Assembly (NCBI GenBank): GCA_016933215.1
Contig: JAFGBH010000006.1
Coordinates: 1-56,664, forward strand
Direction: 5' to 3'
DNA length: 56,664 nt
Origin: Deltaproteobacteria bacterium
GTDB lineage: Bacteria; Desulfobacterota; Syntrophia; Syntrophales; UBA2210
Part shown: positions 20,914-34,260 of the stretch, one piece after another
Position numbering within the stretch: the first letter of the stretch is position 1
Layout: each line of letters begins with the position of its first letter
The notes under the pieces: model-generated
Database searches by the model: none
Told to the model about the DNA's origin: nothing
Seen by the model: only the letters and a program-made list of their open reading frames with translations
Position numbers and translations under genes: made by a program

Positions 20914-21291
20914 ATGGGAGAACTTAATTTTGAAAAAGGTGGGGGACTATTGCCCGCCATTGTTCAGGACTATGAGACAAATGAGGTGTTGATGCTTGCC
21001 TACGTGAATCGGGAATCCTTTGATAAAACGGTGGAAACCGGCAAGGCGACCTACTGGAGCAGATCGAGAAATACCCTCTGGGTCAAGGGTGAAACCTCGG
21101 GTAACCTTCAGTTGGTGAGGGAGATACGTATAGACTGTGATTCAGACACGGTGCTCTTCAAGGTGGAACAAAAAGGGGGGGCGGCCTGTCATAAAGGATA
21201 CAGGTCATGCTTCTACCGATCCGTGAAAGACGGAAAGACTGAGATAGTGGGTGAGAAAATATTCGATCCGGAGGAAGTATACGGAAAATGA
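20914..21291 (+). CDS. hisI: Phosphoribosyl-AMP cyclohydrolase
   Basis: 125 aa; [68 protein letters not shown]. Confidence 0.95.
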
Positions 21292-22160
21292 AACAGTTGA
21301 AACTGGGAATACCGAAGGGAAGCCTTGAGACAAATACAATCGAGCTTTTCAAGAGAGCAGGATGGCAGATCAGGTACGATAAGAGAAGCTATTTCCCCGA
21401 TATCGATGACGAAGAGATTGTCTGCTCTCTCGTGAGGGCACAGGAGATGTCGAGATATGTGGAAAATGGCACCCTCGATCTGGGGCTTACGGGGAAGGAT
21501 TGGATCCTGGAGAACGAATCCGATGTCGCTGTTGTTAGGGATCTCTTGTACTCAAAGGCCTCCACCAGGCAGGCGCGGTGGGTGCTTGTAGTTCGAGAAG
21601 ACTCCCCCGTAAAGACAATCGAGGATATGAAAGACAAGAAGATCTCGACAGAACTGGTAAACTTTACGAGAACCTACTTCGAGAAGCTGGGGATCAATGT
21701 TCACCTGGAATTCTCCTGGGGCGCAACCGAGGCGAAGGTGGTTGAGGGACTTGTTGACGGAATCGTTGAGGTGACAGAGACGGGAAGTACCCTGAGGGCA
21801 AACAAGCTCCGGATTGTCCATGAGCTTATGGAAACAAATACACAACTCATCGCAAACAAGGGGGCATTGGAAGATTCCTGGAAGAAGAGGAAGATAGAGC
21901 AGATCGATATGCTTCTCAAGGGCTCTCTTATGGCCGTGGGGAAGGTTGCCCTCAAGATGAATGTCTCCAAGGAGAATCTCGGAAGGGTGGTGCTTCTCCT
22001 CCCCTCGCTCAAGGCTCCTACCACATCGGAACTCTATCATGAGGAATGGTTCGCCGTGGAGGCGGTTGTTGACAGGGAAATCGTCAGGGAATTAATTCCT
22101 CTGCTTCGCGAAGCAGGTGCAGAAGGGATTATAGAGTATCCCCTTAACAAAGTTTTATAA
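21288..22160 (+). CDS. hisG: ATP phosphoribosyltransferase (long form)
   Basis: 290 aa; [50 protein letters not shown]-terminal regulatory-type domain. Confidence 0.95.
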
Positions 22161-22168
22161 AAGGAGAG

Positions 22169-22762
22169 ATGGTTATGGCACGGAAAGGGAAAGTCTCGAG
22201 AAAGACAAAGGAAACGGATGTCCATGTCGAGGTAAACATTGACGGTAGCGGTAAGGCGGAAATTGCAACGACAATACCTTTTCTTGACCATATGCTTGAA
22301 CTCCTGGCGAAACACGGGTTCATGGATTGTACGATACGGGCGAAGGGTGATACCTCGGTGGACTACCATCATCTCGTCGAGGATGTCGGTATATCCTTGG
22401 GAGAGGCACTGAAAAAGGCCCTCGGTGACAAGGAAGGTATCAGGCGTTACGGTACCGCCTCGGTACCCATGGATGAAAGTCTCTGTCGTGTTTCCATGGA
22501 TATTTCAGGGAGGCCCTACCTTGTTTTTAATGCAGACTTTGGCAGTAAAAAAATCAGGGATTTTGATCCCAATCTGTTTTTCGATTTTTTCAAGTCGCTC
22601 TCTGACTGTATGGGAATAACCTTGCATATCAACGTCATTTATGGTAAGAATCCTCACCACATAGTTGAATCGGTCTTTAAGGCCTTTGCCCGTGCCCTTG
22701 ATGTTGCCGCATCCTTCGATGGTAGAATCAAGGGGGTCATGTCGACAAAGGGAAGCCTCTGA
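22169..22762 (+). CDS. hisB: Imidazoleglycerol-phosphate dehydratase
   Basis: 197 aa; TTIPFLDHMLELLAKHGFMDCTIRAKGDTSVDYHHLVEDVGISLGEAL. Start at 22169 or 22175. Confidence 0.96.
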   Translation: MVMARKGKVSRKTKETDVHVEVNIDGSGKAEIATTIPFLDHMLELLAKHGFMDCTIRAKGDTSVDYHHLVEDVGISLGEALKKALGDKEGIRRYGTASVPMDESLCRVSMDISGRPYLVFNADFGSKKIRDFDPNLFFDFFKSLSDCMGITLHINVIYGKNPHHIVESVFKAFARALDVAASFDGRIKGVMSTKGSL

Positions 22763-22820
22763 GTGAAGTCACAAAGTGGCCGGTGATCGGGTATTCGTTT
22801 CCGCCCAGAGTAATAAAATT

Positions 22821-22838
22821 TCCATACTGCAGTATGGA
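22821..22838. repeat. 18-bp perfect palindrome between hisB and a lipoprotein gene
   Basis: TCCATACTG|CAGTATGGA is self-complementary; a second palindrome CCTTTTAAAAGG lies at 22844-22855. Confidence 0.55.
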
Positions 22839-22864
22839 GCGATCCTTTTAAAAGGGTATAGTCA

Positions 22865-23575
22865 ATGAGGATACACTCCAAGGTAATCAATAGAACAACT
22901 CTTTTTGCCCGAATGACCCTTCTCCTCTGCCTTTCAGTGTTTATTGCCGGCTGCGCCTCAAGCAGGGGCGTGGTGACAAAGTCTTTTTACCGCGAGGGTG
23001 ACCTGAATATAAAAAAGATTGGAATAATCCCTTTTCAGAAAGTTGTATCAGACGACCCGTCGCAGAAATTCATGAGGTGCCCACTCTGTGGCACTATACT
23101 GAGGACCTGCGAACTCAAGAACAACCCTGAAGTAACTATTGAGGAATTCTTCACGAACGGGCTCAGGTCCCGCGGCAGATATATCATTCTGTCGTCGGAG
23201 AGGACACATGGCATATACACAAGGATATCGTCCAGCTCCTTTAATGCTCTGCCTCAAAAGGTATTTCAGGAGGTAGGCAGAGAACTCGATGTCGATGGGA
23301 TTATTGCGGGGTATGTCTTCTGTTACAGGGAGAGGAAAGGGTATCCCTGGTCGGTGGAAAAACCGGCATCGGTGACCTTCAGTGTCCATCTTGTCAGGGT
23401 TGATGACGGGGCCCTGGTATGGAGAGGAACATTTGACAAGACCCAGCGTTCGCTCATGGAAGACCTCCTTGATATAGGTTCCTTCATACGCCAGGGCGGG
23501 AAATGGGTAACGGCACAGAAACTATCTGAAGAGGGAGTGGAGGGAATAATCGAAACCTTCCCCGGCCTCGACTGA
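22865..23575 (+). CDS. Putative outer-membrane lipoprotein of unknown function with CPLCG motif
   Basis: 236 aa; signal peptide with lipobox LSVFIAGCASS; RCPLCGTILRTC; GVEGIIETFPGLD C-terminus. Confidence 0.75.
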   Translation: MRIHSKVINRTTLFARMTLLLCLSVFIAGCASSRGVVTKSFYREGDLNIKKIGIIPFQKVVSDDPSQKFMRCPLCGTILRTCELKNNPEVTIEEFFTNGLRSRGRYIILSSERTHGIYTRISSSSFNALPQKVFQEVGRELDVDGIIAGYVFCYRERKGYPWSVEKPASVTFSVHLVRVDDGALVWRGTFDKTQRSLMEDLLDIGSFIRQGGKWVTAQKLSEEGVEGIIETFPGLD

Positions 23576-23774
23576 AACTACCGTGAATTTTCACGGTAAC
23601 ACTCTGTCGACGTAGTTGTATCCCACCGTTTTAAACATTTCATTTTAAATAATTACGTTTAGACCATAGACACAGAAATTGTTGAAACCACCCGGAGCGC
23701 AGCCTCGGGGATCGCACTCGCAATTTAATTCACCTGTTCACTTGAATAATAGACGACTGTGTTGTATAAGCGGG

Positions 23775-23792
23775 GTAATGAATCTTCATTAC
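23775..23792 (+). promoter_or_regulatory. Candidate TetR operator upstream of the reductase-cluster regulator
   Basis: GTAATGAA-TC-TTCATTAC, perfect 8-bp inverted repeat 21 nt upstream of the predicted start codon. Confidence 0.45.
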
Positions 23793-23812
23793 TCATAAAT
23801 GGAGGGCAAAAG

Positions 23813-24460
23813 ATGTCGAAAATTTCCGAGAGGAAAAGAGAGGAGACCAGGGAAAAGATCGTTGATGCCGCGTGCCAGCTTTTCAGTCAGAACGGCTATC
23901 ATAATACACAGGTTATGGATATTGTAAAGGCGGTGGGTATGTCGGCCGGCACCTTTTACAACTACTTCATAGACAAGCGAGACCTCTTCGAACAGATTAC
24001 CATGGATGGGCTAACAACACTCCGGGTCCATGTGAAGATGCTGAGAAAACCCGTCGACATCTGGGATAGAGAAGAGCGGAGGGAAGCAATGGAGGAGACC
24101 TTTGCGGCCATCTATGATTATGTCGACAGCAATCCACAGCAGTTGCTTATGCTGTTGCGTGGGAGTTTCGGTGTCGACAAGGAATTGAATATTAATGTCT
24201 GGAATTCCTTTCGGGGCTTTGCCGAGGACGTGGCGGAGGATATCCAGGGGTGGATCGACGAGGGTGTGGTTGAGGAGGTCAACCCGGTACTCTTCGGTCA
24301 TGCCGTCGTGGGCCTCTGTCTTCAGTTGATACACAGCTACCTTGTTGAACGAATTATCACCCGTCGGGAAGTCATCGACAGTTCAATAAAACTGATCCTC
24401 GCAATGTTCGAGTCCTATCTCACGGAGGAAGGCAGAAAGGCTCTGGAAGATCAGAAGTAG
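23813..24460 (+). CDS. TetR/AcrR family transcriptional regulator
   Basis: MSKISERKREETREKIVDAACQLFSQNGYHNTQVMDIVKAVGMSAGTFYNYFIDKRDLFEQI; GGAGGG upstream of ATG 23813. Confidence 0.93.
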   Translation: MSKISERKREETREKIVDAACQLFSQNGYHNTQVMDIVKAVGMSAGTFYNYFIDKRDLFEQITMDGLTTLRVHVKMLRKPVDIWDREERREAMEETFAAIYDYVDSNPQQLLMLLRGSFGVDKELNINVWNSFRGFAEDVAEDIQGWIDEGVVEEVNPVLFGHAVVGLCLQLIHSYLVERIITRREVIDSSIKLILAMFESYLTEEGRKALEDQK

Positions 24461-24481
24461 ATGAATCGGAGGTTATGAAGA

Positions 24482-25768
24482 ATGAACACCACTGAAAGCC
24501 GAGACCAGATCTCTCAGATATCGGCGAGAGTAATCGCAGATGTCATACGGTCGGCCGGTACGAAGACCCTCCTCGTTGAGGTGGCAGATAACCTCATCAG
24601 TTCCTGGGGACAAAGGGGTGGGATCAGGGCCAGACTTGCACCATCAATCCGGCGAATCGTCTCTAAATACCTGCGGCCGGGGAGACATGGTTCGAAGGGG
24701 AACATGTCGGCCGATGTGGGAAGACTCCTGACCGAATGGGCTCGGAAGGTGAATGCCGATCATGCCGGTGATCAGGTTTGCCATGCCCAAACCAGGGGAG
24801 AGATTATTCACACTTTCCTCGCAAATACCGACTTCGGCGAAATCAGGGAGATGGTGGAAAATTCAGAGGAATGCGCCCTGAAAACGGTGGAGGTGTTCAA
24901 TGAGAGTCTGTGGAAATACCCCGCTAAGGTGGGAAGTATTCTAGGAACACTCCTTGCCGCGGCGAATACGGGCGTGCGATCGACCAGGGAGGTCCTGAGA
25001 CCCATAGAGAAAAACGTGAGTCCCGATCTCCTGGCTGATCTTCTCCTGTCACTCCTGAAAGGACTGAATGCGAAAGAGGTGGCAAATCTGGTAACCTCGC
25101 TCTGCGAATTGACGAGGCGACTCCACACCGGAAGTGCCCTCCTGTCACGGGGAGGGAAGCCGCTGTTTCAGATTTACCTCACCGAGCTTCTCGAAGAGGC
25201 ACTGCCGGCCGTCGATCCGGTGCTCCTCGGAAAGGCGAAGATCGCCCTGGCAGAAGATCGAGCTGCCGTTGCCAGCGCCCTGGCAGATGCCCTTTCCCGT
25301 AATCCCGACTTTATATTGGAAATAGTTTCCTCCTACGGCGCGGTAACGACCCCGCTCATCACGGGGGCATCCCGAAAGGTTCGTCTCCTTGAGGAGGTTG
25401 ATCAGGGACGTCTTGCTGACGCTGTTTCACGAGGGCTATCCGATCTCGATACCTATGAAATTGCTGAGCTTATCAATACCGCCATCAGAATCATCAATAC
25501 GGTTCATGAGGAACGACCCGATATTATTCCAAGCCTCGTCACTTCCGTCGTGAATTCCATCGATACGGAGGAGCTTAAGACTGCCTCCCAATGGATAATT
25601 CCCGAAGCTGTCGAAGCCCTCAGGCCGGTGACCGCGGAGGTGGCCCCGGCTGTCATTCGGGGCCTCTGCGAGATACTCGCTCCCGAAGGCGGATTTGAAA
25701 GTGACGAGCACGAAGAGGCCTTTAAAACGCTGCAGGCACGGCTCGGTGTAACGGGGGGTATACAATGA
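24482..25768 (+). CDS. Uncharacterised, predominantly alpha-helical protein, first gene after the TetR regulator
   Basis: 428-aa ORF; stop overlaps next start (ATGA at 25765-25768); no family recognised. Confidence 0.75.
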   Translation: MNTTESRDQISQISARVIADVIRSAGTKTLLVEVADNLISSWGQRGGIRARLAPSIRRIVSKYLRPGRHGSKGNMSADVGRLLTEWARKVNADHAGDQVCHAQTRGEIIHTFLANTDFGEIREMVENSEECALKTVEVFNESLWKYPAKVGSILGTLLAAANTGVRSTREVLRPIEKNVSPDLLADLLLSLLKGLNAKEVANLVTSLCELTRRLHTGSALLSRGGKPLFQIYLTELLEEALPAVDPVLLGKAKIALAEDRAAVASALADALSRNPDFILEIVSSYGAVTTPLITGASRKVRLLEEVDQGRLADAVSRGLSDLDTYEIAELINTAIRIINTVHEERPDIIPSLVTSVVNSIDTEELKTASQWIIPEAVEALRPVTAEVAPAVIRGLCEILAPEGGFESDEHEEAFKTLQARLGVTGGIQ

Positions 25769-26898
25769 TTGCTGAAATACGGGACATAGCGTACTCGGTC
25801 AATAACCGATATGTTGAAACGTGGAAGAACGGGGGAAATAAGGTCGTCGGCTTTCCCTGCACCTTCGTGCCGGAGGAAATTCTTCATGCCGCTGGAATAC
25901 TGCCCTTCAGGCTCCGCGGTGTGGGCACGAAAACGCTTTCGATCGGTGACACTTACTACGGTCCGGTCATCTGCAGTTTTCCAAAATGCATCCTTCAACT
26001 CGCAGGCCAGGGGGACTATTCATTTCTTGATGGTACGATCATCACCAATGGGTGCGACTCCATGCGCCGTCTTGACGAGTGCTGGAGAAAGGCGGGAGAA
26101 GACATCGAGGGAATTCTCCCGGGATTCTTCTATTATTTCGGTGTGCCGCACAAGGTGACCGACTACAGCATCAGGTGGTTTGTCGATGAGATCAGAGAAC
26201 TTCTCAGTGCACTGGAGGGGCACTTTGAGACAGAAATAACGGAGCAGGCCCTGAAACAATCGATCGAGATTTATAATACCGGGAGAAAACTCCTTCGGAA
26301 ACTCGATGGTATCAGAGCCTCCGATGACGTTGTAATAAATGGTGAAGATGCCATGGCCATTATCATCGCAAGTTCTTCCATGCCGCGGGAAGACTTTAAT
26401 ACACTGCTCGAGGCGACTCTTTCGGAAGTCAAAAAAAGTGGTGCTGGAATGGCTGGTAAAAAACGTCTGATGATCGTGGGGAGTGCAAATGACGATCTGG
26501 ATTTCATCAGGCTTATCGAGGATTCAGGCGCGGTGGTTGTTGCTGATACGATGTGTTTTGGCTCGAAGTCCTATGTCGACCTCGTTGATGAAACGACCGA
26601 TCCGGTCGATGCGCTTGCCCGCCGCTATCTCAGCCACAGTTACTGTCCTCGAATGTTCGGCTATTACAAAGAACGGCTCGACTATATACGAAAGAAGGCA
26701 GCGGCGGCCAGGATAGATGGGATTATTCTCCAAAACATACGGTTCTGTGATCTTCACGGCTCTGAAAACGGTATATTTGAGCGTGATCTCGAGGCAGAGG
26801 GCATACCCTGTATGCGGATGGAACGGGAGTACGGACCTCTCGTGGAGACCGGCAGAATCAAGATGCGCGTCGATGCATTCATGGAGAGGATATCCTGA
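25765..26898 (+). CDS. BCR/2-hydroxyacyl-CoA dehydratase family subunit (BcrC/HgdB-like)
   Basis: 377 aa; VVGFPCTFVPEEILHAAGILPFRLRG, GPVICSFPKCILQLAGQGDYSFLDGTIITNGCDSMRRLDECW; C-terminal HGSENGIFERDLEAEGIPCMRMEREYGPLVETGRIKMRVDAFME. Confidence 0.88.
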   Translation: MIAEIRDIAYSVNNRYVETWKNGGNKVVGFPCTFVPEEILHAAGILPFRLRGVGTKTLSIGDTYYGPVICSFPKCILQLAGQGDYSFLDGTIITNGCDSMRRLDECWRKAGEDIEGILPGFFYYFGVPHKVTDYSIRWFVDEIRELLSALEGHFETEITEQALKQSIEIYNTGRKLLRKLDGIRASDDVVINGEDAMAIIIASSSMPREDFNTLLEATLSEVKKSGAGMAGKKRLMIVGSANDDLDFIRLIEDSGAVVVADTMCFGSKSYVDLVDETTDPVDALARRYLSHSYCPRMFGYYKERLDYIRKKAAAARIDGIILQNIRFCDLHGSENGIFERDLEAEGIPCMRMEREYGPLVETGRIKMRVDAFMERIS

Positions 26899-26984
26899 AG
26901 ATATATGCAATAAAGAGATACTAATCTTTTTTATCATATGTCCTGAACGTTGAAAAGCACGGGGCAGTCGTCAAGGATCGAAGG

Positions 26985-28394
26985 ATGAGAAAGGAAACAA
27001 AAGAATATAACTACGACTGGATGCTCTGGAGCATTATTGACAATGCTGCCAAGACCTGTGACGGGTCTCGCAAGGAATACGAGAGCCTTCTCGGGCTTAT
27101 TCCCCATTTGCGGGATCTCCTCCATACCATTATAAGCCAGGGTGAGCCGGGGATCCTCCTCTTGAAGCTGCTGGCCGGGTATCTCAAGAAGATCCTTACC
27201 GCGCACGACGAAGGGAAGAAAATCGCGATGACCACCTTCTGCTTCGCGCCACCCATTCTGTACGCGTTTGATGTGGTACCGCTCCTTCTCGAGCCGATTA
27301 CCGGCCTCGGGACGTTCATTCTCCGACGCGGCACCGCGGAATATCTTGACTACTGTTGTGAAGTCGGGTTTACGGAGACATCCTGCTCAAGCCAGAGGGG
27401 GTCTCTTGGTGCCTATCTTGCAGGACTTGCAACACGCCCCGATCTTATCGTCTGCGATTCACCGGGGATCTGCGATACGAATGCCAACTCCTATGCCTTT
27501 GCCTCTGCATACCTCGGTATCCCCTTTTATCAGTTGAACCACCCCCCTTCCCTTACCGATGAACGATCACGGCGCTACCATACTGAAGATTTCAGGAACA
27601 TGATAGCCTTCATCGAAGAGCAGACGGGCAACAAACTGGATCAGGACCGTCTGCGAGAGGTCATCGAAGAGATCAAGATCCAGGACAAACTGATTTGCGA
27701 GCTTACCGATCTCCAGCAGCTCATCCCGTCCCCGATGCCGAGCATCTACAACCTCTTTCTCTATTCAGGAGTCTTCCTCTTTAACGGAACAAAGGGATTT
27801 ACAAGGCTTTTAAGGTCTATGCTGAAGAAGGTACGGACGAACGCCGAAAAGGGGATTGCAGGAACAAGGTCAACCGGCGAGCGGGCGCGGGGTTTCTTCT
27901 CCTATATCGACCACTACACGACCGACTTGCGTTTCTGGCAATGGCTGGATGCAAACGATATATCCCACCTCGGGTGCATCCTCAGCTCGTTCTGGCAGGA
28001 GGGTGCCGCCTATGCCGTCGATCGCGAGGATGCGACCTACCGCATGAGCACCGACAGCATGGAGAGCATGATCGATTCACTGGCCGCGCAGATGTCGCGC
28101 ATGCCGATGGTGAAATCGATCAGGGGACCCTATGATGCACCCAATATGTGGCTCGACGATACACTGAACATGGCCCGCCTCTTCAAGGCCGATTTTGTGT
28201 CCTATTTCGGTACGATCGGCTGCAGAAACACCTGGGGAATGGTGAAATCCTATGCCAGGGATCTTGAACGGCATGGAATACCCACCCTTATCCTCTACTC
28301 AGATTCATTCGACGACCGGGTGCAGTCATGGGAGGCGGTAACGGATAAAATGAGTGAATTCATTCATCTGCGAGGGATAGGAAAGAGGCTGTAG
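26985..28394 (+). CDS. BCR/2-hydroxyacyl-CoA dehydratase family subunit (BcrB-like), paralog 1
   Basis: 469 aa; KKIAMTTFCFAPPILYAFDVVPLLLEPI, LDYCCEVGFTETSCSSQRGSLGAYLAGLATRPDLIVCDSPGICDTNANSYAFASAYLGIPFYQLNHP. Confidence 0.83.
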   Translation: MRKETKEYNYDWMLWSIIDNAAKTCDGSRKEYESLLGLIPHLRDLLHTIISQGEPGILLLKLLAGYLKKILTAHDEGKKIAMTTFCFAPPILYAFDVVPLLLEPITGLGTFILRRGTAEYLDYCCEVGFTETSCSSQRGSLGAYLAGLATRPDLIVCDSPGICDTNANSYAFASAYLGIPFYQLNHPPSLTDERSRRYHTEDFRNMIAFIEEQTGNKLDQDRLREVIEEIKIQDKLICELTDLQQLIPSPMPSIYNLFLYSGVFLFNGTKGFTRLLRSMLKKVRTNAEKGIAGTRSTGERARGFFSYIDHYTTDLRFWQWLDANDISHLGCILSSFWQEGAAYAVDREDATYRMSTDSMESMIDSLAAQMSRMPMVKSIRGPYDAPNMWLDDTLNMARLFKADFVSYFGTIGCRNTWGMVKSYARDLERHGIPTLILYSDSFDDRVQSWEAVTDKMSEFIHLRGIGKRL

Positions 28395-28445
28395 GTGCAG
28401 GGATTTATATACTGTATGAAAGAGGTCCTCAGCCTGACGACCTGT

Positions 28446-28461
28446 ACCTCCCCGTGGAGGT
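28446..28461 (+). promoter_or_regulatory. Shine-Dalgarno-sequestering hairpin
   Basis: ACCTCC-CCGT-GGAGGT; the 3' arm GGAGGT is the ribosome-binding site of the small ORF starting at ATG 28466. Confidence 0.45.
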
Positions 28462-28465
28462 GAGT

Positions 28466-28696
28466 ATGGATAAGGAAAAGATCGCAATGATCGTTCTCGA
28501 AGGTATTGCTCTCGATGGCTCCCGTGTTCTTGTAGAGCGGCAGCGGGCAATTGACGCCCTGACCCTTTTTCACAACTCCGCAATCCCGTTCTTGATGAAC
28601 GTAGAGAGGAAGACAGACATGGTCGTACTAAAAGAGCGGTCACGTCTTTATATCCAGCGAATACAAGAGGGTGCGAGTACCAGCATGACGCTCTAG
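28466..28696 (+). CDS. Small uncharacterised protein between the two paralogous reductase subunits
   Basis: 76 aa MDKEKIAMIVLEGIALDGSRVLVERQRAIDALTLFHNSAIPFLMNVERKTDMVVLKERSRLYIQRIQEGASTSMTL; GGAGGTGAGT upstream. Confidence 0.6.
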   Translation: MDKEKIAMIVLEGIALDGSRVLVERQRAIDALTLFHNSAIPFLMNVERKTDMVVLKERSRLYIQRIQEGASTSMTL

Positions 28697-28706
28697 GACC
28701 GTTGCC

Positions 28707-30110
28707 ATGAGAAGGGAATCACGGGAATACAACTACGACTGGATGCTCTGGAGTATCCTCGACCATGCGGCGAAAAGCTGTGACGGTACGAAAAAAGAAT
28801 ACGAAAACCTCTGCACCCTCATTCCTCACTTTCGCGACGTTCTTGACGCACTCGTACGGCACGGCGAACCGGGCAGACTCTTCCTCAATCTGCTTTCCGA
28901 CTATTGCCAGAGGTGTATTTCGGCGCACGATAACGGCAAAAAAGTGGCACTCACCTCGTTTTGTGTCGCAACCCCCATACTTTATGCCTTTGATATGGTG
29001 CCTGTCTGCCTGGAGGCCATGACGGTCCTCGGCACCATTGTGCTGAAACGGGGAACAGCAGAGTACCTGGACTATTGCTGCGAGGTTGGTTTTACCGAGA
29101 CATCCTGCTCTGCCCAGAGAGGTGCCCTCGGGGCGTTTCTCGCAGGACTGGCTGTGCGCCCGGACATCATCGTCTGCGATTCTCCGGGTATCTGCGACAC
29201 CAATGCCAACTCCTTTGCCTTTGCATCTTCCTATCTCGATATACCCTTCTATCAGCTCAACTACCCGCCGTCGCTCACCGACGAGCGGGCAACGAGGTAC
29301 CACCGGGAAGACTTCAAAAACCTGATCGTATTCATTCAAGAGCAGACGGGTAATACCCTCGATGAAGATGTCCTGAGAACAGTCGTAGAGGAAACAAAAA
29401 AACAGGACAATCTTGCAAGTGAACTCCTCGAACTGCAACGGATCGTTCCATCCCCTGTGCCGGGCATATACGATCTTCTGCTCTATGGCGGAAAATTCAT
29501 GACGGGCGGTTTGAAAATCTACACAACGTTGCTTGAATCGATGCTGGAGACGGTAAAGAGAAATGCCGAGAGGGGCGTATCGGGAACAACATCCTCGAGA
29601 GAAAAGGCACGCGGGCTCTTCTGTTATATCGATCACTACACGACGAATATGCGATTCTGGGACTGGATGGATTATAATGAAATTGCCCATCTGGGATCAC
29701 TCCTCTTTACCTTCTGGCAGGAGGGGGCGGTCTATGCGGAAGATCATGAAAATGAGACCTATAGGATAGAGACTGACACCATGGATACAATGATCGATTC
29801 CCTCGCCGATCAGATGTCGAGAATGCCCATGGTGAAGCAGATACGGGGGCCCTATGATGCCCCGGGCATGTGGCTGGATGATTCCCTCGGAGCTGCGCGT
29901 CTCCTGCATGCGGATTTCGTCGCCTACATCGGGACGATGGGGTGCAGGAATACCTGGGGTATGGTGAAACTCCTTGCACGGGACCTGGAAAACCGGGGCA
30001 TACCCACGATGGTACTCTACGTTGATGCCTTTGACGATCGAATTGCCTCGTGGGAGGCAATGACTGATAAGATGGATGAATTTATAGCGCTAAGGAGAAT
30101 AGGTTTATGA
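28707..30110 (+). CDS. BCR/2-hydroxyacyl-CoA dehydratase family subunit (BcrB-like), paralog 2
   Basis: 467 aa; collinear with the product of 26985-28394 along its length (EYNYDWMLWSI, LDYCCEVGFTETSCSAQRG, IVCDSPGICDTNANSFAFAS, GCRNTWGMVK). Confidence 0.83.
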   Translation: MRRESREYNYDWMLWSILDHAAKSCDGTKKEYENLCTLIPHFRDVLDALVRHGEPGRLFLNLLSDYCQRCISAHDNGKKVALTSFCVATPILYAFDMVPVCLEAMTVLGTIVLKRGTAEYLDYCCEVGFTETSCSAQRGALGAFLAGLAVRPDIIVCDSPGICDTNANSFAFASSYLDIPFYQLNYPPSLTDERATRYHREDFKNLIVFIQEQTGNTLDEDVLRTVVEETKKQDNLASELLELQRIVPSPVPGIYDLLLYGGKFMTGGLKIYTTLLESMLETVKRNAERGVSGTTSSREKARGLFCYIDHYTTNMRFWDWMDYNEIAHLGSLLFTFWQEGAVYAEDHENETYRIETDTMDTMIDSLADQMSRMPMVKQIRGPYDAPGMWLDDSLGAARLLHADFVAYIGTMGCRNTWGMVKLLARDLENRGIPTMVLYVDAFDDRIASWEAMTDKMDEFIALRRIGL

Positions 30111-30910
30111 TAGTTGCAGGCTGTGATGTGGGGTCGCTCACGACGAAGGCAGTAATCCTTAATGAGAAAAGGGTGCTGGGACATGCCATTATCAAATCCT
30201 CATTCAAACCCGAGGAATCAGCTGAAGAGGTAATGAAAAAGGCCCTTGTCGCCGCAGGGCTCTCCATGAATGATATCGGTTTCTGTGTCGGTACCGGCTA
30301 TGGCAGGGATAGAATACCCTTTGTCGGCAGGGTCTTCTCTGAAATTGCCTGTCATGCGAAAGGGGCTCTGTGGCTTATGCCGCAGGTGAGGACCGTAATC
30401 GACATCGGCGGGCAGGACTGCAAGGCAATCAAGGTCGATAGAGATGGTACCATTCTAAAATTCATTACCAATGATAAATGTGCTGCCGGAACGGGGCGAT
30501 TCCTCGAGGTCATGGCAGGATTACTGGACATTGATCTGGACGAACTGGGAAGACTTTCGGCAGCAGCGAAAAACCCGCTTTCGCTTGCCGCTACCTGCAC
30601 GGTATGGGCCCAGGCAGAGGTTATCCACCATCTCAATGACGAGAAACCGATCCCCGATATTGCCTCTGCAATCAACCAAGCAATGGCGGTACGGGTTGCT
30701 ATACTTGCAAGGAATGTAGGGGTGGAAAGGGAGGTGTGCATGACCGGCGGGGTTGCAAAGAATGTGGCGGTAGTTGCGAACCTTGAGAAACTGCTCGATG
30801 TGAAGGTACGCAGACTGAGAGTTGATCCCCAGATGGTGGGGGCACTCGGGGCAGCGCTCTTGGCGCGGGAGAAGATGGAGGGCACGAAGGATGATCGTCG
30901 CGGGATGTGA
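30107..30910 (+). CDS. BcrA/BadF/HgdC-type ATPase (reductase/dehydratase activase) 1
   Basis: 267 aa; AGCDVGSLTTKAVIL, GTGYGRDRIPF, DIGGQDCKAIK, NDKCAAGTGRFLEVMA, ATCTVWAQAEVI, CMTGGVAKN. Confidence 0.94.
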   Translation: MIVAGCDVGSLTTKAVILNEKRVLGHAIIKSSFKPEESAEEVMKKALVAAGLSMNDIGFCVGTGYGRDRIPFVGRVFSEIACHAKGALWLMPQVRTVIDIGGQDCKAIKVDRDGTILKFITNDKCAAGTGRFLEVMAGLLDIDLDELGRLSAAAKNPLSLAATCTVWAQAEVIHHLNDEKPIPDIASAINQAMAVRVAILARNVGVEREVCMTGGVAKNVAVVANLEKLLDVKVRRLRVDPQMVGALGAALLAREKMEGTKDDRRGM

Positions 30911-31670
30911 TATAGGCTCTCTCAGTGCGAAGGCCGTGATCCTGAAAGATGGGGGAATCCTTGCATATCAGGTGATACGAGCGAAATCAAGACCCGAGGA
31001 GTCGGCACGGGAAGTTATGGAAGATGTCATGGAACAATCTGATATTTCGATCGATTCCATCGATTACTGCGTCGGGACCGGCTACGGGAGAAACCAGATA
31101 CCCTTTGCCGATGCAGTCGAATCGGAGATCGCCTGCCATGGCAGGGGTGCCCAATGGCTCGTGCCGTCCATTCGCATGGTACTTGACATCGGCGGGCAGG
31201 ATGCAAAGGCGATACGTCTCGATGGGGCCGGTAATGTTATCAGGTATGTCTATAATGATAAATGTGCCTCCGGCACCGGCAGATTTATTGAGATCATGGC
31301 GGAGGCCCTGGGTGTTGCACTGGAGGATATGGGGGAGATATCTGCTCAGGCCGAAGAACCGGTTACCATCTCGAACCAGTGCGTGGTCTTCGCTGAAACC
31401 GAGATCATCTCTCTTATCAATGACGGCAGAAAGCTTCCCGATATCGTGGGAGGACTCCACCGCGCCATGGCACACCGGGTGGTATCACTGGCAAAGGGCA
31501 TCGAACTTGAAGAGGATATCGCCTTTACCGGCGGGGTTGCAAAAAACAGGGGAATGTTCTCGGCCCTCGAGGAGGCACTCGGTGTCACGATAAAAGGCAC
31601 GGGTGTTGATCCGCAGATAACGGGTGCTTTGGGAGCGGCCCTCTTCGCATCAGAGGCTGTAACTCTGTAA
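30891..31670 (+). CDS. BcrA/BadF/HgdC-type ATPase (reductase/dehydratase activase) 2
   Basis: 259 aa; AGCDIGSLSAKAVIL, GTGYGRNQIPF, DIGGQDAKAIR, NDKCASGTGRFIEIMA, SNQCVVFAETEIIS, FTGGVAKN. Start moved from 30822 to ATG 30891. Confidence 0.94.
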   Translation: MIVAGCDIGSLSAKAVILKDGGILAYQVIRAKSRPEESAREVMEDVMEQSDISIDSIDYCVGTGYGRNQIPFADAVESEIACHGRGAQWLVPSIRMVLDIGGQDAKAIRLDGAGNVIRYVYNDKCASGTGRFIEIMAEALGVALEDMGEISAQAEEPVTISNQCVVFAETEIISLINDGRKLPDIVGGLHRAMAHRVVSLAKGIELEEDIAFTGGVAKNRGMFSALEEALGVTIKGTGVDPQITGALGAALFASEAVTL

Positions 31671-31671
31671 T

Positions 31672-32397
31672 ATGGGACTTTTTGAAGAAACCTTCAACGA
31701 AATAGAACATTTTCTCGACGGGCGACAACCACTGAGATCATGGAGGATATTGGATGGTAGCGTATGGCCGGCAGGGGGTAGGAGGAACATCGTCCTTGGT
31801 GACGATGTGGGCGTTGAACTGGGAAATCCGGAAAAAGGATCGGTATCCTCTATCATATGGACCGGCCGGAGAAAGAGGGTAAAGGACGAAACCGTTATAC
31901 TCATAGGTCCCGATATATCCGAGAGCATGGGGGAAAGCCTTCCCTACGGAAAGATTGTTTCTGTAGAGGTCGACGGTTTCAACGATGAAAATACCTACGA
32001 TCGCTACAGGGAGATGGAATCGATCAAGTACGACCTTGACCTGAGAGGCTATATGCTTCGGGCCGTCTCGCAATATCAGCGAGAGTGGTGCAGGATCAGC
32101 AGGGAGGCCGTCAGGGAGGGGTTCACCTTTCAGGCCCTGGGGAAGGCCTTGATCGAGAGACTCAAGGAACTCGAATACGTAAGGGGAGTGGAGATGTTAT
32201 TCGTCACGTCCAGTGAATCCGACGTGGCGTATTTAGGGGAGATTACTAAAGGGGTAACGCGGATTGTCGGTGCCATGCACAAGATGGCTGAGGAATTTTC
32301 TCTTGATTGTGACACCTGTGAATACCAGGACGTCTGCAATGAAGTCGGCGAACTACAAGGAATGAGGAAGGCCTTACAGAAAAAAGATGGGGATTGA
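31672..32397 (+). CDS. Stand-alone protein resembling part of acetyl-CoA synthase beta subunit (CdhC/AcsB), with terminal CX2CX4C motif
   Basis: 241 aa; ETVILIGPDISESMGESLPYGKIVSVEV... REWCRISREAVREGFTFQALGKALIERLKELEYVRGVEMLFVTSSESDV resembles the GPD/E... W-RISK-A-KGF...HIG--L--K------VDKVQVTIYTD region of AcsB/CdhC; C-terminal CDTCEYQDVC. Resemblance recalled from memory, not searched. Confidence 0.62.
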   Translation: MGLFEETFNEIEHFLDGRQPLRSWRILDGSVWPAGGRRNIVLGDDVGVELGNPEKGSVSSIIWTGRRKRVKDETVILIGPDISESMGESLPYGKIVSVEVDGFNDENTYDRYREMESIKYDLDLRGYMLRAVSQYQREWCRISREAVREGFTFQALGKALIERLKELEYVRGVEMLFVTSSESDVAYLGEITKGVTRIVGAMHKMAEEFSLDCDTCEYQDVCNEVGELQGMRKALQKKDGD

Positions 32398-33166
32398 GAG
32401 GGTAATGAAAACAAAGACCATAGCCGTATTCGGCAAGGGTGGTGTCGGGAAAACCACGATATCGGCCATCATGCTGAACATTCTCGCCGAACGATGCGAC
32501 GGAAGTATACTCGCCATTGATGCAGACCCCTCGTATGGACTCGCCTTCGCGATGGGATTTGGGGTGAAAAAGACCGTTGACGATATACGAAAGGATATCA
32601 TCAAGAGTATAAAAAAGGGGATCAGACGTGATAAGGAAGATACACTGCGGATGCTTGACTATGAAGTCTTCGATGCCCTGACGCAGGGTACAAAGATTGC
32701 CTTTCTTGCAATAGGACGACCTGAAGACGAAGGGTGCTACTGCAAGGTCAACTATCTTTTGAAGGATATTATTGCCGACCTCGCCGGTAATTTTGATATT
32801 GTTCTCATCGATGGGGAGGCCGGAGTGGAGCAGATAAACAGAAGGGTAATGAAAACAGTTGATTCCCTGGTGCTCGTATCTGACACCTCTGCGAAGGGGA
32901 TAAATGTGGTGGAAACAATACGACATGTCGCCCATGACAACAGGGCCGTGGATTATCAAAAGATCGGACTCGTCATCAATCGGGCACGGAGTGAGGAAGA
33001 GGCTGAGCGCATACACCGGAATACGTCACTCGATCTTTTGGGCTGGATGCCCGATGATGACCTCATACGTGAATATGACTTTGAGGGAAGACCCCTGACG
33101 GACTTACCCCCCTCATCGACGACCAGGCAGATGGTGATCGGCGTTCTGGAAAAGCTGGGATTCTAA
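32387..33166 (+). CDS. CooC/AcsF-type MinD-family ATPase (Ni insertion accessory protein-like)
   Basis: 259 aa; AVFGKGGVGKTTISAIML P-loop, LAIDADPSYGLAFAMG, GCYCKVNYLLKDI (CxC encoded at 32735-32743), LVSDTSAKGINVVETI. Alternative start ATG 32405. Confidence 0.87.
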   Translation: MGIERVMKTKTIAVFGKGGVGKTTISAIMLNILAERCDGSILAIDADPSYGLAFAMGFGVKKTVDDIRKDIIKSIKKGIRRDKEDTLRMLDYEVFDALTQGTKIAFLAIGRPEDEGCYCKVNYLLKDIIADLAGNFDIVLIDGEAGVEQINRRVMKTVDSLVLVSDTSAKGINVVETIRHVAHDNRAVDYQKIGLVINRARSEEEAERIHRNTSLDLLGWMPDDDLIREYDFEGRPLTDLPPSSTTRQMVIGVLEKLGF

Positions 33167-33178
33167 GATATTGAACCT

Positions 33179-33198
33179 CCCCGCAACACGTTGCGGGG
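33179..33198. terminator. Hairpin closing the reductase/CooC cluster
   Basis: CCCCGCAAC-AC-GTTGCGGGG immediately after the CooC-like stop; no strong T-tract. Confidence 0.45.
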
Positions 33199-33222
33199 AC
33201 CCTTCGATTGTTTAGTAAGTTA

Positions 33223-33260
33223 GAAATTATTTTCTGTGTTTTCCGGCAGAAAATAATTTC
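33223..33260. repeat. Long inverted repeat upstream of hisA
   Basis: GAAATTATTTTCTG (33223-33236) / CAGAAAATAATTTC (33247-33260), 14-bp perfect arms. Confidence 0.6.
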
Positions 33261-33525
33261 GCTAACGCCCTTATCCCGTTTATCGGGATTAAGGAAAATA
33301 TTATTTTATATTCTCGCTTCCCCCTCTGCAAGTAGCGGGGAATGCGCTCGCTGTTCAATTCACTTTCAAGAATTTTTACGAGAAGAGGTTGACAAGAACG
33401 GGATTTATCGGATAGAAAAAACCGTTTATAATCCCCTTCGGTGCCTCGTGAATGAGGGCATGAGTTGGAGAGTATCGTCTTTCCCGCCGAAGCGGGATCG
33501 TTTTGTTTCAAGGGAGAATCATCCG

Positions 33526-34260
33526 GTGATTGTAATACCCGCTATAGACATAAGGGATGGAAAATGTGTCCGCCTCCTTCAGGGTGATTTTGAGCGTACA
33601 ACCGTCTATTCGGACGACCCCGTAGATATGGCAAAGAAATGGCAGGAAAAAGGGGCCGCGCGCATCCACCTGGTCGATCTCGATGGCTCTCGCACCGGTC
33701 GTCCTCAAAACAGGGCGGTAATCGAGAGAATTGCCCGCGAGATAGACGTTCCCCTTCAGGTGGGTGGGGGAATCCGGGATATAAAAACCGTGAGAGACTA
33801 TATCGAAATGGGGGTCGGATATTGTATCGTGGGGACTGTTGCCCTGAAAGACAGAGATTTTGTGATTGAGGCATGTCAACGGTTCAACGATTCGATTATC
33901 CTTGGAATCGATGCACACGACGGAAAAATTTCCGTTGAGGGATGGACGGAACGTACAATCCTTACCCCCCTTGAGATTGCACAAAGTTATGAGGGATGCG
34001 GACTTGCGGCGATAGTCTATACCGACATAGCACGGGACGGTATGGAAACGGGAGTGAACATAGAAGCGACGAAAGAACTTGCTGAATCGGTGACGATTCC
34101 GATTATTGCCTCTGGCGGCGTGTCCGGTATTGATGATATACAAAAGCTCATCGATGTTGAGAAATCGGGAATCATAGGGGTCATCACGGGGAAGGCCCTC
34201 TATGAAGGAACCTTAACCCTGGAAGAGGCAGTGACGATGACTCGAATGACGGGTCGCTGA
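33526..34260 (+). CDS. hisA: Phosphoribosylformimino-5-aminoimidazole carboxamide ribotide isomerase
   Basis: GTG start 33526 with AAGGGAGA upstream: VIVIPAIDIRDGKCVRLLQGDFERTTVYSDDP, LQVGGGIRDI, YTDIARDGMETGVN, IIASGGVSGIDD. ORF-track start 33208 includes noncoding sequence. Confidence 0.94.
   Translation: MIVIPAIDIRDGKCVRLLQGDFERTTVYSDDPVDMAKKWQEKGAARIHLVDLDGSRTGRPQNRAVIERIAREIDVPLQVGGGIRDIKTVRDYIEMGVGYCIVGTVALKDRDFVIEACQRFNDSIILGIDAHDGKISVEGWTERTILTPLEIAQSYEGCGLAAIVYTDIARDGMETGVNIEATKELAESVTIPIIASGGVSGIDDIQKLIDVEKSGIIGVITGKALYEGTLTLEEAVTMTRMTGR

Follow-up and report, generated by a model that had tools for sequence, protein, structure and literature searches.

We propose that an operon in a draft genome of an uncultured deltaproteobacterium of the order Syntrophales probably encodes an ATP-dependent reductase of the benzoyl-CoA reductase/2-hydroxyacyl-CoA dehydratase (BCR/HAD) superfamily, in which a predicted double-cubane subunit, N, has two alternative catalytic partners, A and B. 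The stretch of DNA analysed (hereafter the window; 56,664 nucleotides) constitutes a complete contig (C56) from a draft genome (G000) of 2.69 Mb and 97.8% completeness. The genes form a tight operon on the + strand (23759-33166), with neighbouring genes overlapping by a few bases in several cases, in the order TetR, P428, N377, A469, s76, B467, act1, act2, CdhC-like, CooC-like:

23759..24460, + strand: TetR-family regulator at the head of the operon (Pfam TetR_N, 4.7e-17; likely ATG start at 23813)
24482..25768, + strand: P428, first structural gene of the operon (all-alpha, 428 aa; 35-row alignment)
25765..26898, + strand: N377, BzdN/DCCP-type partner subunit with a predicted [8Fe-9S] double cubane (HGD-D, 4.7e-89)
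26985..28394, + strand: A469, catalytic-type ([4Fe-4S], BzdO/HadB-like) subunit, paralogue A (Pfam HGD-D, 2e-49)
28466..28696, + strand: s76, small conserved operon protein (homologous ORFs in the operons of many relatives)
28707..30110, + strand: B467, catalytic-type subunit, paralogue B (Pfam HGD-D, 5e-46)
30107..30910, + strand: act1, ASKHA-type acyl-CoA dehydratase activase/BCR ATPase subunit (TIGR00241, 2.5e-70, over cut-off)
30891..31670, + strand: act2, second activase subunit, overlapping act1 (TIGR00241, 1.9e-73, over cut-off)
31672..32397, + strand: CdhC-like protein (241 aa), homologue of the ACS middle domain (PF03598, 4.8e-12)
32387..33166, + strand: CooC-like SIMIBI ATPase (259 aa) with a CxC motif (CooC1 3kje, 1.2e-16)

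The TetR gene lies upstream of the operon in many relatives too, and P428 is found in nearly all of their operons. P428 has no Pfam match, and its AlphaFold model, which consists entirely of helices (pLDDT 83.8, pTM 0.66), retrieved nothing significant among PDB folds with Foldseek. None of the structural subunits of the operon scores above the cut-off of a curated NCBIfam equivalog. Around the operon (window 20914-34260), HisI-, HisG- and HisB-like ORFs are located upstream and a HisA-like ORF downstream, these names being our reading of the translations; a gene cluster for the biosynthesis of histidine thus seems to be interrupted by the operon, which suggests a later insertion.

The two large subunits are paralogues that, as the first-pass annotation had noticed, align end to end: in BLASTP, 317 of 466 positions of A469 and B467 are identical (68%), without gaps and with a score of 704 bits. 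The segments quoted in that annotation as Cys-rich occur in both copies but hold only the first two cluster ligands (C134 and C163), and their other cysteines (C124, C125 and C157) are variable. The invariant cysteines of the large subunit are C134, C163 and C413 only (41-66 family members), and these three are kept throughout in 64-66 copies. In the family profile they coincide with Cys95, Cys128 and Cys380 of BzdO, that is, with the complete three-cysteine set of an O subunit with a [4Fe-4S] cluster; in BzdO, these three residues coordinate the catalytic [4Fe-4S]-OH2 cluster (PMC11971306). Glu103 is likewise invariant across the family and aligns with HadB Glu55, as a putative equivalent of the catalytic Glu65 of BzdO, and the position of BzdO His131 is occupied by an invariant Asn166, so that the bzd-type combination of Glu65 and His131 is lacking. 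The corresponding codons of the window are:

27291..27293, + strand: Glu103 of A469, aligned to HadB Glu55
27384..27386, + strand: Cys134 of A469, aligned to BzdO Cys95
27471..27473, + strand: Cys163 of A469, aligned to BzdO Cys128
28221..28223, + strand: Cys413 of A469, aligned to BzdO Cys380
29013..29015, + strand: Glu103 of B467, from the family alignment
29106..29108, + strand: Cys134 of B467, from the family alignment and the profile against BzdO
29193..29195, + strand: Cys163 of B467, from the family alignment and the profile against BzdO
29943..29945, + strand: Cys413 of B467, from the family alignment and the profile against BzdO

The AlphaFold model of B467 (pLDDT 81.3, pTM 0.87) has HadB (3o3m) and BzdO (8s02) as its best Foldseek matches, with E-values from 2e-14 to 1e-8 against HadBC, BzdNO, MbdON and DCCP. 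Given the ligand cysteines, Glu103 and these fold matches, A and B are both of the catalytic rather than the electron-storage type. Moreover, the Pfam HGD-D family, which marks the BCR/HAD fold, scores over its cut-off for N377, A469 and B467, which bears out the earlier count of three subunits with this fold in one operon.

Neither of the signs that the first-pass annotation had named as speaking against its reading was seen: no cluster-ligand cysteine is lost in 66 copies, and there is no frameshift decay in the relatives, where a single TGA at G003:C57 is a natural stop at which the ORF of L024 terminates. The pairwise dN/dS ratios are 0.06-0.16 for A and 0.08-0.22 for B, the most distant comparisons being near synonymous saturation. 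Decay of one copy is thus ruled out by the open frames, the low pairwise dN/dS and the retention of all ligands. Twenty alignment columns discriminate A from B, mostly by conservative differences, and only 4 of the 20 are 7 residues or fewer away from a cluster cysteine, barely more than expected by chance, so that this proximity gives no clear sign of different substrate pockets.

The partner subunit and BzdN can be aligned along the entire length of N377 (3.6e-41). Its C32, C70, C97, C264, C294 and C328 each match a cysteine in BzdN and DCCP; these alignments show HadC without two and MbdN without three of the six. None of the 48 orthologues (48/48) deviates at any of these positions, so that at the sequence level the six-cysteine set of a bzd-type N subunit is complete. 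BzdN and DCCP carry an [8Fe-9S] double cubane, and HadC carries a [4Fe-5S] remnant (PMC11971306). By this cysteine test N377 is a predicted double-cubane subunit, and such a partner would favour a multi-electron reductase. A seventh cysteine of N377, C106 (window 25765-26898), is also invariant (48/48). As for the activases, both score over the TIGR00241 cut-off and have the two cluster cysteines of an ASKHA activase, which are invariant in act1 (C125 and C164, 46/46) and in act2 (42/42). The presence of both genes beside a single large subunit in other operons rules out one activase per large subunit; therefore, A and B share act1 and act2.

Taken together, these features suggest the following mechanism for what would be an ATP-dependent member of the BCR/HAD superfamily. 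With the expenditure of ATP, act1 and act2 would drive low-potential electrons into the putative double-cubane cluster of N, which would store them and hand them to the [4Fe-4S]-OH2 catalytic cluster of a large subunit, where the (presumably CoA-linked) substrate would be reduced. A and B are anciently diverged proteins, each with the full set of catalytic ligands, and the N-A and N-B pairs probably prefer different substrates. Dedicated accessory roles, in maturation or in electron/CoA handling, are probable for the CooC-like and ACS-middle-domain-like proteins.

A search through 84,980 species genomes yielded 45 loci, in records labelled as Desulfobacterota or deltaproteobacterial, or in unassigned MAGs and SAR324. 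In an even sample of Desulfobacterota, 23 of 395 genomes carry the operon, two of them as weak matches. The operon is present in Smithella-type syntrophs and in lineages of sulphate reducers, and contig C4 of one genome (G363), which belongs to the same taxonomic order as the genome of the window, also bears it. The gene order P428-N-[large subunit(s), s76]-act1-act2-CdhC-CooC is strongly conserved. The interval between N and act1, in a count that includes a few redundant loci (close strains or overlapping copies), takes these forms (BIG, a large subunit):

N-BIG-act1: 23 loci, three with a second large subunit after act2
N-s76-BIG-act1: 7 loci
N-BIG-s76-BIG-act1: 7 loci and the window
N-s76-BIG-BIG-act1: 4 loci
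N-BIG-BIG-act1: 2 loci
N-BIG-s76-act1: 1 locus
no large subunit between N and act1: 1 locus

Operons with two large subunits all have a single N gene; within the operon, duplication of the large subunit never extends to N.

In maximum-likelihood trees, A469 of the window groups with the A copies of other families (support 100/99), and B467 falls among the B copies, together with the s76-B operons that have one large subunit (L020-L022, L107). Since A and B form separate clades, the split is old and a recent duplication is ruled out. Further pairs stand apart from A and B in the trees, namely C1/C2 in the Smithella-type loci, E1/E2 in Desulfobacterales and a tandem pair in family f56, and at L011/L019 the copy in the A position is of a different origin; two-copy arrangements therefore arose at least four times. 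The catalytic residues are kept in every copy inspected. In family f56 (L098, L099), the members of the tandem pair are only 53-54% identical, and the second copy has a very long branch with all catalytic residues retained. At L022 (15375-21014; = L105), another HGD-D cluster, of distant relationship, follows downstream of the operon and likewise has one N-type and two large-type subunits; the doubling of the large subunit may thus recur in another subfamily.

With respect to the complex, the first-pass annotation had left the choice between a heterotrimer and two alternative heterodimers that share one partner, and gene content argues for the latter. One A-only operon (L106) occupies a central position on a 300-kb contig of a genome that is 98% complete and has one match (G126), the operon being otherwise complete without s76 and B. 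Conversely, the B-only operons of two genomes that are 99% (G188; L022/L105) and 97% (G400; L107) complete contain a single B-type copy behind s76, and at L015/L108 A and s76 are present and B is absent. Given these A-only and B-only operons in nearly complete genomes, each large subunit can apparently work with N alone, which argues against an obligate heterotrimer. A complex that unites N, A and B and contains two catalytic clusters would fit the occurrence of A beside B with one N gene in several families of Desulfobacterota, as expected from a fixed stoichiometry; however, it is at odds with the operons just described, and the relatives that have been characterized are heterodimers (BzdNO, HAD) or homodimers (DCCP) (PMC11971306), so that we consider such a complex very improbable. 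Most likely, two alternative heterodimers, N-A and N-B, share N and the activases, although an organism that retains both copies might build a mixed complex. A and B could also be interchangeable isoforms that serve the level or the regulation of expression, still in alternative heterodimers with N. The identical ligand sets, the mostly conservative nature of the discriminating residues and the repeated independent duplications are compatible with such redundancy, but A and B have long been distinct in different genera, and residues specific to each are conserved (the 20 columns); we regard mere dosage as unlikely.

The chemistry of the N-A and N-B heterodimers can be weighed along the same lines. 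Conceivably, the enzyme is a 2-hydroxyacyl-CoA dehydratase of the HAD type, which recycles one catalytic electron, rather than a reductase. By fold as well as by profile, the large subunit has its best match in HadB, a HAD needs little ATP, with one ATP per electron being hard for strict anaerobes to afford, and the Asn at the position of BzdO His131 casts doubt on a reductase. Nevertheless, N377 has the six double-cubane cysteines and not the HadC set, two activase genes are present as in class I BCR, and the NCBIfam HadB and HadC scores are far below the cut-off (NF052455/NF052456 for HadBC: A469, 44 vs 750 bits; N377, 157 vs 700 bits). A dehydratase is therefore possible but doubtful, and we tentatively favour reductive chemistry. 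Nor is the preferred reductase a benzoyl-CoA reductase as judged by its residues, given the invariant Asn at the His131 position.

Neighbouring genes offer several hints as to the substrate. A pair of dissimilar acyl-CoA dehydrogenases is encoded upstream of the operon at L010, L016 and L022, and a GMC oxidoreductase at L021, L029 and L044. In the genome of the window, a small contig (C100) encodes orthologues of the dehydrogenase pair (78% and 47% identity) with a short P428-like protein behind them; contig C90 has additional dehydrogenase copies, next to which lie an activase, a second pair of HGD-D subunits and one more P428-like protein. Among curated families, the dehydrogenase comes closest to enzymes of alicyclic acids, with scores far under the cut-off. 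As to the type of substrate, a bulky and hydrophobic CoA ester would be plausible. The C90 locus (L127, 537-9416) comprises a different HGD-D pair, one activase, three acyl-CoA dehydrogenases, a P428-like protein of 215 aa and an SCP2-like protein; the latter is below the Pfam cut-off, and a sterol-like substrate is not claimed. Other neighbours of the operon encode an aldehyde:ferredoxin oxidoreductase and a flavodoxin/ferredoxin fusion (L031, 19702-21387; L022, 14484-15362), which are possible electron donors.

The small ORF that had been placed between the large subunits in the initial reading is present as an 80-aa ORF at 28454-28696. The sequence and the start of its homologues indicate a probable ATG start at 28466 (76 aa), with a GGAGGTGAG ribosome-binding site upstream. 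Sixteen residues of s76 are near-invariant in 19 sequences, and the comparison of L006 with L010 gives a dN of 0.024 and a dS of 0.20. Furthermore, s76 occurs also in operons with one large subunit and is therefore independent of the large-subunit duplication. A chance spacer is ruled out by the homologues, the low dN, the conserved residues and the single-copy operons.

The CooC-like protein has a deviant Walker A motif and an invariant CxC pair (C117 and C119, 35/35), the counterpart of which in CooC-1 is Cys112/Cys114 (PMC6006190). Its position 15, just before the Walker A glycine (window 32387-33166), is Cys in 34 of 35 orthologues and Phe in the window. The CdhC-like protein covers the ACS middle domain only (residues 336-466 of M. 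thermoacetica ACS), without the A-cluster domain, and has a C-terminal CxxCx5C motif (C213, C216 and C222) invariant in 36 of 36 sequences. In the genome of the window we detected no CODH/prismane protein (PF03063), and PF03598 only in the 241-aa protein of the operon itself; a prismane/CODH protein is also absent from two genomes of the same family (G003, G005), and a full-length ACS-type match was found in only 5 of 23 operon-bearing genomes. A role of the two genes as servants of CODH/ACS is thus rejected for the genome of the window, which has neither, and, given also the scarcity of full-length ACS among the carriers, both proteins most likely serve the enzyme of the operon. The literature searched, which took in only a minor part of the subscription journals, contained no operon that joins HGD-D subunits with CooC or CdhC; these genes point to a maturation or electron-transfer step of which the papers found give no description for the superfamily. 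More speculatively, and with little probability in our estimation, the system could constitute a separate class of ATP-dependent double-cubane reductases of syntrophic and sulphate-reducing bacteria, with interchangeable catalytic subunits, their own CooC-type metallochaperone and ACS-derived CoA/Fe-S protein, possibly a nickel-containing or modified cluster, and as substrate a CoA ester linked to acyl-CoA dehydrogenase chemistry.

Comparison with known systems places the operon among several described enzymes. With the class I benzoyl-CoA reductase of Aromatoleum (BzdNO/BzdPQ) it shares the fold, the six-cysteine N, the three-cysteine O and two activase subunits, but identity in O is only 15-16%, the His131 position is Asn, the large subunit has an N-terminal extension, there are two large subunits, and the P428, s76, CdhC-like and CooC-like genes are additional; the respective models, TIGR03190/TIGR03191, score below cut-off (N377, 148.6 vs 453.8 bits; A469, 24 vs 448.6 bits). 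The (R)-2-hydroxyisocaproyl-CoA dehydratase HadBC resembles it in that the large subunit is closest in fold to HadB, with HadB Glu55 corresponding to Glu103, and differs in that HadC has two cluster cysteines fewer than N377 and in that the operon has two activase genes. The six-cysteine double-cubane set of DCCP/DCCP-R of Carboxydothermus aligns with N377 but, unlike the homodimeric DCCP, N has catalytic [4Fe-4S]-type subunits beside it, and the double-cubane reductase model (NF040772) gives 176 bits against a cut-off of 350. With the CODH/ACS system the operon has in common a CooC-like ATPase with CxC and a CdhC-like protein that resembles the ACS middle domain; in contrast, it encodes no A-cluster domain, and the genome of the window has neither ACS nor CODH. 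Described BCR/HAD enzymes combine one catalytic with one partner subunit, whereas here a second catalytic subunit for the one predicted double-cubane partner has been acquired in several lineages, and such a system would offer a direct test of how substrate choice is kept apart from electron delivery.
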